DNA of 38,042 bases from assembly GCA_020061125.1 (NCBI GenBank), contig JAGUYV010000085.1:1-38042 (forward strand), given 5' to 3'. The stretch comes from a bacterium. GTDB lineage: Bacteria > UBP15 > UBA6099 > DSWB01. The position numbers and the translations under genes are program-made. Positions within the stretch are counted from its first letter, which is position 1. Each line of letters starts with the position of its first letter. Of this stretch, positions 18,935-21,378 are shown one piece after another. The notes beneath the pieces are model-generated. The model was not told the DNA's origin and ran no database searches. It saw only the letters and a list, made by a program, of their open reading frames with translations.

Positions 18935-19933
18935 CTATCCGCCGCCCGCCTGTGATACGGCCTGCTTGGCCAGCTCCGGAGATAACCCGTCGTAAATGGC
19001 GTCAAGCAGATCAATGACGGCCAGAGGCTGAACATTGGCCTGTGCGGCCGCGGCCTGTGCGCTCTGGTTGAGAATCTGATTGCGCGACAGGCCCGTGATT
19101 TCATCGGCGAAGTCCGCATCCTCGACGCGCGACTTGCCTGCGGCGATGTTGATGTACTGGGCCTGAATGTCCTGTAGCGTGTGCTGGAGTTGGCGGTCTT
19201 GCACGCCCAGGCGCGCTCGGATGTCGCTGATGATATTCAGCTTGTCGTCGGACAGCGTGAGCAGGCTCTTGGCCTGATTCAGATACCCGTCTGCGTCCAT
19301 GAGGCCGTTGATGTTGTCCCAGGGAGGCACGCCCACGCCCAGGAAAAAGTCCGTGAAGGTCTGCCTGATGTCGTCAATGAAAATCTCGATTCTGTGAGTG
19401 GAGTCCGCGTCCGGCCCTACCTGCAGACACTCGCCGAATTCAAAGGAATCGTTGAACACCGGCTTTTCGCCGAATTCGGCGAATGGCTTGACCTTGTTGA
19501 AGAATTCGTCCTCGTCGCGCGTCATGACCCACAGGTGATACCCCATGGTGAGGATTTCCTTGTAGAGCCGGTTCATGTCGCTCGGGATGAGGTCGTTGGC
19601 GTTCTGCCCCGGATGCACGCTCAAGGCGGCCTGGTTGCTCATGCGCACGGACAGATCCCGGATGTTCAGAAGAACATTCTGGATGTCGTCCAGGTATCCA
19701 TCTACATAGCGGATGAGATTGATGCCGTCCTGAATGTTGTGCATGTTCACGAGCAGGCCGTTGACCTGGGCCTGCATGCCCTTGCTGATGGCAAGGCCCG
19801 AGGGGTCGTCCTGTCCGCGATTGATGCGCAGCCCGGATGCCATGCGTTCGGTTCTCTGCGAGAACTCGAGATTGAGCTGGCGCATGCGTTCGTGGGCGTC
19901 CAGGGCATAGAGGTTCGTGTTGATGCCCAGCAT
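18935..19933 (-). CDS. Flagellin (atypical, inserted central region)
   Basis: MLGINTNLYALDAHERMRQLNLEFSQRTERMASGLRINRGQDDPSGLAISKGM; AAGKSRVEDADFADEITGLSRNQILNQSAQAAAAQANVQP. Confidence 0.92.
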   Translation of the reverse strand: MLGINTNLYALDAHERMRQLNLEFSQRTERMASGLRINRGQDDPSGLAISKGMQAQVNGLLVNMHNIQDGINLIRYVDGYLDDIQNVLLNIRDLSVRMSNQAALSVHPGQNANDLIPSDMNRLYKEILTMGYHLWVMTRDEDEFFNKVKPFAEFGEKPVFNDSFEFGECLQVGPDADSTHRIEIFIDDIRQTFTDFFLGVGVPPWDNINGLMDADGYLNQAKSLLTLSDDKLNIISDIRARLGVQDRQLQHTLQDIQAQYINIAAGKSRVEDADFADEITGLSRNQILNQSAQAAAAQANVQPLAVIDLLDAIYDGLSPELAKQAVSQAGGG

Positions 19934-19936
19934 GGC

Positions 19937-19952
19937 TTTACCTCCCTGTAAA
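19937..19952 (-). promoter_or_regulatory. Hairpin holding the flagellin-1 Shine-Dalgarno in its loop (candidate CsrA site)
   Basis: Minus-strand TTTAC-AGGGAG-GTAAA immediately before GCCATG. Confidence 0.5.
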
Positions 19953-20057
19953 TCTGAAAGCGAACTCCATTTCGCCTGTGGCGCATCAGCCTGTGCGGAT
20001 GTGCGCCGCAAGGCTTGCGTCTTTTGCCGGAATTGAAGTGTCCTGCCGCAGATCCTC

Positions 20058-20078
20058 CCGAAGGCCTCATGCCTTCGG
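20058..20078 (-). promoter_or_regulatory. Hairpin in flagellin-1 leader
   Basis: Perfect CCGAAGGC-ATGAG-GCCTTCGG on minus strand. Confidence 0.5.
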
Positions 20079-20211
20079 AAACAGATTGTTCAGCAAATGT
20101 CTTCCCGGCCTGTTCTGTTGCTGCTGCAATGCTGAAGAAAGAATCGCCGCGTCCAGCGGTGCATTCCCGCTCCGGCATGGGGCCATCGCGTATGCTACAG
20201 CCTTGCCTGTA

Positions 20212-20239
20212 TTATCGGACTACTTAAAGTAAAACTTGA
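20212..20239 (-). promoter_or_regulatory. Sigma28-like promoter for flagellin 1
   Basis: Minus strand TCAAGTTT-N12-TCCGATAA versus consensus TAAAGTTT-N11-GCCGATAA. Confidence 0.65.
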
Positions 20240-20311
20240 GATAAAATTAAAAATATTCTATTAATAAAGCCAATTTTTATTAAAGTGAATTGTCAGGTGC
20301 AAAGCAGCAAA

Positions 20312-20333
20312 GCCCGCCCCCGGAGGGACGGGC
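20312..20333 (-). terminator. Probable terminator of flagellin gene 2
   Basis: Minus strand GCCCG-TCCCTCCGGGGG-CGGGC followed by TTTGCTGCTTT. Confidence 0.5.
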
Positions 20334-20382
20334 CGTATTGCTGAATGTGTTATTGCGTTGGGGTGGTGATGTGTGTTGCGCG

Positions 20383-21270
20383 TCAGCGCAGGAGCTGCAG
20401 GATGCTCTGGGGCTGCGCGTTTGCCTGGGCCAGGATGGCGGTGCCGCTCTGCTGGAGAATCTGCAGGCGTGTGAACTCGGAGATCTCCGTGGCCATGTCC
20501 GCGTCCCAGATGCGGCTCTTGGCGGCCGATATGTTGATGTCTTCGGCCTTGAGGTCGTCAATGATGTGGCCCAGGCGGCGTTCCTGGATGCCCAGGGAAG
20601 CCCTGATGTCGCTGACATAATTGATTGCGCTGTTGATGTAGTCAATGGCGACCCAGGCCATGGACAGCGCGCCGGCGCCGGCGTGGTTGCTGATCATGAG
20701 GCTGCCTGCATTGAGGAAGTTCGCGCCTCTGGTGCCGCTGATCATGAACAGTCCGCTGTTGTTCACGACATCAATTTCGATGGTCAGCCGATAGTTGGTT
20801 CCATTGTCTGGTCCGATTTGAAGCATCTGCGCATTTGTGCTCATGTAGCCGCCGGAGAAAAGCACCTTGGTGTTGAAAGTGACGGCTTGCGCCTTGCGCT
20901 GGAGTTCGTCTTTCAGGCTGCGCAGTTCCTGATTGATGCGCATGATGTCGCGGCTGGTGAGGGTGGCTTCGTTGGCCGCGCGCACGGCGAGGTCGCGCAT
21001 GCGCATCAGGATGTCGTGGGTCTCGGCCAGGGCGCCGTCCGCCGTGTGGATCAGGCTGATGCCGTCTTCGCCGTTCATGACCGCGGTGCGGATGCCGCCG
21101 ATCTGGGCCTCCATGCCCTTGGCGATGGCCAGTCCGGACGGGTCGTCCGCGCCCTTGTTGATGCGCAGACCCGAGGACAGCCTTTCCAGGGACTGTTTCA
21201 GCCCCAGGTTTGTCAATCTCAAGTTGTTGAGACCGATCAGTGCCGAGATGTTTGTGTTGATGATTGCCAT
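20383..21270 (-). CDS. Flagellin
   Basis: MAIINTNISALIGLNNLRLTNLGLKQSLERLSSGLRINKGADDPSGLAIAKGM; C-terminal ILQQSGTAILAQANAQPQSILQLLR. Confidence 0.95.
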   Translation of the reverse strand: MAIINTNISALIGLNNLRLTNLGLKQSLERLSSGLRINKGADDPSGLAIAKGMEAQIGGIRTAVMNGEDGISLIHTADGALAETHDILMRMRDLAVRAANEATLTSRDIMRINQELRSLKDELQRKAQAVTFNTKVLFSGGYMSTNAQMLQIGPDNGTNYRLTIEIDVVNNSGLFMISGTRGANFLNAGSLMISNHAGAGALSMAWVAIDYINSAINYVSDIRASLGIQERRLGHIIDDLKAEDINISAAKSRIWDADMATEISEFTRLQILQQSGTAILAQANAQPQSILQLLR

Positions 21271-21298
21271 TTTCTTAATCCTCCCTGATTGGAGTGCT

Positions 21299-21316
21299 CC
21301 GGACCTCCATGTCCGG
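21299..21316 (-). promoter_or_regulatory. Hairpin in flagellin-2 leader with AUGGAG loop (candidate CsrA site)
   Basis: Minus strand CCGGAC-ATGGAG-GTCCGG, ~30 nt upstream of ATG. Confidence 0.45.
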
Positions 21317-21350
21317 TACCATGCTTGAGTCGTCTATGACTTCACTGGAT

Positions 21351-21378
21351 ACATCGTCAAATTTGTCCCAAACCTTTA
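21351..21378 (-). promoter_or_regulatory. Sigma28-like promoter for flagellin 2
   Basis: Minus strand TAAAGGTT-N12-GACGATGT; same 12-nt spacing as flagellin 1. Confidence 0.5.

Follow-up and report, generated by a model that had tools for sequence, protein, structure and literature searches.

Two-site flagellin leaders in a candidate bacterial phylum as probable targets of CsrA–FliW control

Both flagellin genes in the window (the whole stretch of 38,042 nucleotides that was analysed) carry a leader with two candidate CsrA sites, one in an upstream hairpin with a GGA-containing loop and one overlapping the Shine–Dalgarno (SD) sequence, and control by CsrA and FliW is very probably the best explanation of these leaders. 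The preliminary description had proposed that CsrA, possibly with FliW, controls both flagellins. This proposal is supported by the csrA and fliW genes found in the genome, by hairpins that are conserved and covary among relatives, and by a layout that matches proven targets; binding and repression would follow by analogy with those targets. The features are collected in Table 1.

Table 1. Flagellin genes and leader features in the window, and the invariant hairpin of the csrA-linked flagellin leaders (last two rows, given by contig).
Feature	Position	Strand	Description
Flagellin 1	18935..19933	minus	332 aa, Flagellin_N + Flagellin_C (Pfam); ATG at 19933
Flagellin 1 BS2, candidate SD-overlapping site	19937..19952	minus	UUUAC-AGGGAG-GUAAA, SD inside loop
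Flagellin 1 BS1, candidate upstream CsrA site	19958..19977	minus	AGGCGAA-AUGGAG-UUCGCUU; loop start 37 nt 5′ of ATG
Flagellin 1 sigma-28-like promoter, tentative	20212..20239	minus	TCAAG...TCCGATAA, 10/12 positions
Flagellin 2	20383..21270	minus	295 aa, Flagellin_N + Flagellin_C (Pfam); ATG at 21270
Flagellin 2 BS2, candidate SD-overlapping site	21277..21290	minus	AAUC-AGGGAG-GAUU
Flagellin 2 competing CUCC/GGAG stem	21281..21294	minus	the minimum free energy (MFE) structure at the SD
Flagellin 2 BS1, candidate upstream CsrA site	21299..21316	minus	CCGGAC-AUGGAG-GUCCGG, ANGGAN hexaloop; loop start 40 nt 5′ of ATG
Flagellin 2 sigma-28-like promoter, tentative	21351..21378	minus	TAAAG...GACGATGT, 9/12 positions
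Invariant hairpin GUUUCUGG-UGGCU-CCAGAAAC	L113 12240-12300 (G000:C51)		just 5′ of SD, csrA-linked flagellin
Invariant hairpin, same place in relatives	G001:C51, G002:C332, G003:C10, G004:C26, G005:C15, G006:C371		

In flagellin 2, the CCGGAC-ATGGAG-GTCCGG hairpin described earlier is indeed read upstream of the SD, with CAGGGAGGAUU at the SD. It belongs to both the MFE and the centroid fold of the leader, its segment has a z score of -2.5, and covarying counterparts are present in relatives. The SD is AGGGAGG in both window flagellins, and the GGA of the upstream site (BS1) lies 24 nt from that of the SD-overlapping site (BS2) in flagellin 2. At the SD itself, folding prefers the CUCC/GGAG stem over the AAUC/GAUU stem. 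In flagellin 1, the TTTAC-AGGGAG-GTAAA hairpin with the SD in its loop also stands as first read, and re-counting UUACAGGGAGGU against the CsrA consensus RUACARGGAUGU gives the same 10 of 12 positions. This leader had been taken for a single-site leader, and here the description needs correction: a second, upstream AUGGAG hairpin had been overlooked, so that both window flagellins have two sites each, and the GGA-to-GGA distance in flagellin 1 is 23 nt. The flagellin 1 hairpins fold as isolated segments only, the upstream one at -6.8 kcal/mol (z -2.4) and the SD hairpin, weak alone, at -1.6 kcal/mol (z -0.6); the MFE of the 76-nt leader is another fold without the SD hairpin. In relatives, SD stems of the flagellin 1 class take the forms UAC-AUGGAG-GUA and CUAC-AAGGAG-GUAG. 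Leader folding, then, bears out the upstream hairpin of flagellin 2 but leaves the SD of flagellin 1 outside its hairpin and pairs the SD of flagellin 2 with CUCC. CsrA sites need not be part of the MFE. Since the leader folds do not always show them, the SD hairpins are kept here as putative elements. Very stable stems proved disadvantageous for CsrA sites in SELEX (PMC7652899).

Sigma-28-like promoters can be placed tentatively before both genes. Taken alone, the window promoters are no better than shuffles: that of flagellin 2 is weak because shuffles of its region often reach 9/12, and 15 of 300 shuffles score at least 10/12 for that of flagellin 1. Better matches occur in flagellin leaders of relatives (G003:C59, G004:C35, G005:C5 and G006:C538): good promoters of the sigma-28 type, TAAAG-N15-GYCGATAA, lie there some 83 nt ahead of the start codon, and with a promoter at that position the hairpin would fall inside a short 5′ UTR.

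The earlier proposal implied that the hairpins should recur in related flagellin leaders; the upstream hairpins are conserved there, and they covary. Our phylum set comprises the window genome, a MAG of UBP15 type, and the six other available genomes (seven in total, from four genera), the relatives including UBP15_UBA6099 and ADurb.Bin236 MAGs. A strict hairpin, defined as an ANGGAN hexaloop between -70 and -24 whose stem has 6 bp or more, precedes 16 of the 34 non-redundant short flagellins and none of 394 control genes, which are other genes from the same contigs (Fisher p ~5e-20). Of the long flagellin-domain proteins, 2 of 31 have it. For a comparison unselected for pairing, every ANGGAN at -65 to -24 of the short flagellins was taken, which gives 36 distinct 22-mers. 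The cells of the 7-bp stem are paired in 77.0% of cases, compared with 27.8–38.9% when the partner is slid, and the covariation score is 0.698, compared with at most 0.171. Double-sided changes in the stems number 78 against 30 after shuffling, a difference whose significance is inflated by the relatedness that remains in the shuffles, while the slid control keeps this relatedness; both sides vary in all seven pairs. The pairing pattern is unchanged when the window genome's own sequences are removed. One loop is carried by diverse stems, such as GUCGAUC/GAUCGAC, CGGGAAAA/UUUUCCCG, GGCAGGAU/AUCCUGUC and CCGGAC/GUCCGG.

The second site is also widespread in the phylum. An upstream site together with ANGGA at the SD is observed in 39 of 52 short-flagellin leaders, with a median GGA distance of 25 nt, and the other 13, including most csrA-linked ones, are without a clear upstream site. 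At the SD, most sites read AUGGAGG or AGGGAGG instead of plain AAGGAGG. A bridging CsrA dimer accepts 10–63 nt between sites, with an optimum above 18 nt (PMC7652899), and the window spacings of 23 and 24 nt lie within this range. Flagellin-domain genes are unusually many, with 21 ORFs in the window genome and 7–16 in the relatives, and the very long ones (frames of 900–1000 aa) are mostly without a CsrA-type leader.

CsrA control presupposes a csrA homologue, and the genome search found both regulators. The window genome is 79% complete and spans 4.1 Mb over 513 contigs. A single csrA (E 4.4e-22) and a single fliW (E 1.2e-30) share one of these contigs, with about 0.1 kb between them, and a flagellin gene comes next. 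Both are present in all seven phylum genomes, and the coordinates give the order fliW–csrA–flagellin in each. CsrA keeps the RNA-binding segments MLVLSRK and VHRKE; its nearest matches are the B. subtilis protein and the CsrA in the FliW–CsrA complex 5dmb, and the best PDB match of FliW is 5dmb_A. CsrA has 80 aa, compared with 61 in E. coli, and its alignment to the 5dmb CsrA stops near residue 61. A search of all seven genomes with the CsrB model gave no match, in line with the reported anticorrelation between FliW and the BarA–UvrY/Csr sRNA pathway (PMC4682653).

The flagellin gene that follows csrA has a leader of a different build. Comparing these leaders by eye (L113 upstream of 12300; L049, L047 and L050–L052), we find a hairpin whose loop is an AGGAN pentaloop and whose stem varies, as in GGGAGCAA-AGGAU-UUGUUCCC, GAGCUA-AGGAA-UAGCUC, GGGGUA-AGGAU-UACCCC and CGGGUC-AGGAC-GACCCG. 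It is probably a variant CsrA site, placed farther from the SD (~47 nt). Between it and the SD lies, in all seven genomes, an invariant hairpin whose 16-mer core is identical and single-copy throughout the four genera. Outside the phylum the 16-mer occurs in 1 of 379 genomes, about the chance level, and the hairpin is not in Rfam. We suggest, tentatively and with more doubt than confidence, that one CsrA/FliW switch serves many flagellin paralogs, whose leaders of varied spacing and stem would give graded or ordered synthesis, and that the phylum-specific element of the csrA-linked flagellin adds a further input. If so, the invariant hairpin would be an input without a known counterpart in hag or flaA.

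We also searched beyond the flagellin leaders. The hairpin model R1 gives 44 matches at E<=1 over the seven whole genomes, 31 directly 5′ of flagellins, partly by construction since many of these served to build R1, and 13 elsewhere. None of the readable matches elsewhere has an SD and a start codon at the right distance, and therefore no further target is claimed; in L129 and L146 the site could not be placed. Intergenic GGGU-ACGGAG-ACCC hairpins at G002:C98:6603, G002:C11:5936 and G002:C218:2731 are followed by CUACAU or GCUACAU, without SD or start, and look like a dispersed repeat. With Rfam models, a tRNA is the sole match in the window; in the flagellin leaders no match is convincing, that of Phe_leader being below the cut-off. 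Alpha- and gamma-proteobacterial flagellin leaders, a small set picked by similarity whatever their fliW status, have no such hairpin.

From hag and flaA we infer how CsrA would bind the observed sites, bridge them and repress, and how FliW would act in the partner switch. The upstream ANGGAN hexaloop would be the high-affinity site of a CsrA dimer, which would bridge about 24 nt to the SD-overlapping GGA and thereby exclude the ribosome. Upon export of flagellin, FliW would become free to bind CsrA, and repression would be relieved; upon its accumulation, flagellin would capture FliW, and CsrA would repress again.

The same leaders might be read in other ways. Stem-loops are common stabilisers of mRNA, and the hairpins could act without CsrA, by stabilising flagellin mRNAs or by sequestering the SD, with the GGA loop incidental; the ability of the flagellin 2 SD to pair in the CUCC/GGAG stem would suit the latter. 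However, mere stabilisers require neither a fixed ANGGAN loop nor a fixed spacing to a second GGA, and the flanks next to the loop are paired at 0.75–0.93 in flagellins, whereas those of the 60 chance ANGGAN occurrences in the same interval of control genes pair at a background of 0.32–0.48. We therefore regard a CsrA-independent role as improbable. Chance, or the A+G-rich composition of the SD, is hardly credible as a source of the pattern: GGAGG is a normal SD and the SD hairpin of flagellin 1 alone is not better than shuffles, but the upstream hairpins are missing from every control gene, dinucleotide shuffles yield 0.05 per set against the 16 observed, and the stems covary.

A further reading keeps CsrA on the leaders and replaces FliW as its antagonist by sRNAs that titrate CsrA. 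The match to 5dmb ends at about residue 61, which leaves a FliW-binding C-terminus of this CsrA putative and would agree with such a scheme; with fliW directly beside csrA in all seven genomes and no CsrB match in any of them, we consider it very improbable.

CsrA control through such a flagellin leader is proven in Campylobacter, with two hairpins, and in Bacillus, with two sites. The CsrA–FliW flagellin circuit is already known; the novelty here lies in the phylum and in how many paralogs share the leader. CsrA–FliW control of these flagellins would add an uncultured candidate phylum to the known range of the two-hairpin leader, on the evidence of covariation. Control of flagellin has been proposed as the ancestral role of CsrA–FliW (PMC4894983), which the occurrence of this leader type in the candidate phylum supports. 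The paralogous leaders, with their varied stems and spacings, form a natural set for testing the requirements of CsrA, and the leaders of the long flagellin-domain proteins provide an internal negative set.

Finally, we compared the leaders with three known systems. The C. jejuni flaA leader has two ANGGA hexaloop stem-loops, the second over the RBS and 21 nt from the first, proven by footprinting and mutation and accompanied by compensatory changes (PMC4894983). The leaders described here likewise have two ANGGA sites, one in an upstream hexaloop stem-loop and the second over the RBS in a putative stem-loop, at 23–24 nt compared with ~21 nt, and they share the compensatory changes among relatives and the presence of csrA and fliW in the genome without CsrB. 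Unlike flaA, they come from a different phylum, the same leader, its stem varying, stands before many flagellin paralogs in one genome, with up to 8 detected, and the CsrA sites are candidates. B. subtilis hag is the CsrA target in the Hag–FliW–CsrA partner switch (reviewed in PMC7652899; PMC6529632). The preliminary description had likened flagellin 2 to hag, and its upstream and SD sites do match the proven targets hag and flaA; fliW and csrA are adjacent in B. subtilis as they are here. Whereas Hag is the one main flagellin of B. subtilis, the genomes studied here have many flagellin-domain genes, and one flagellin gene directly follows csrA. As in E. coli glgC (PMC7652899), a high-affinity hairpin site would tether the dimer, which then blocks the SD; unlike the flagellin leaders, glgC belongs to a non-flagellar gene and is antagonised by the CsrB/C sRNAs rather than by FliW.
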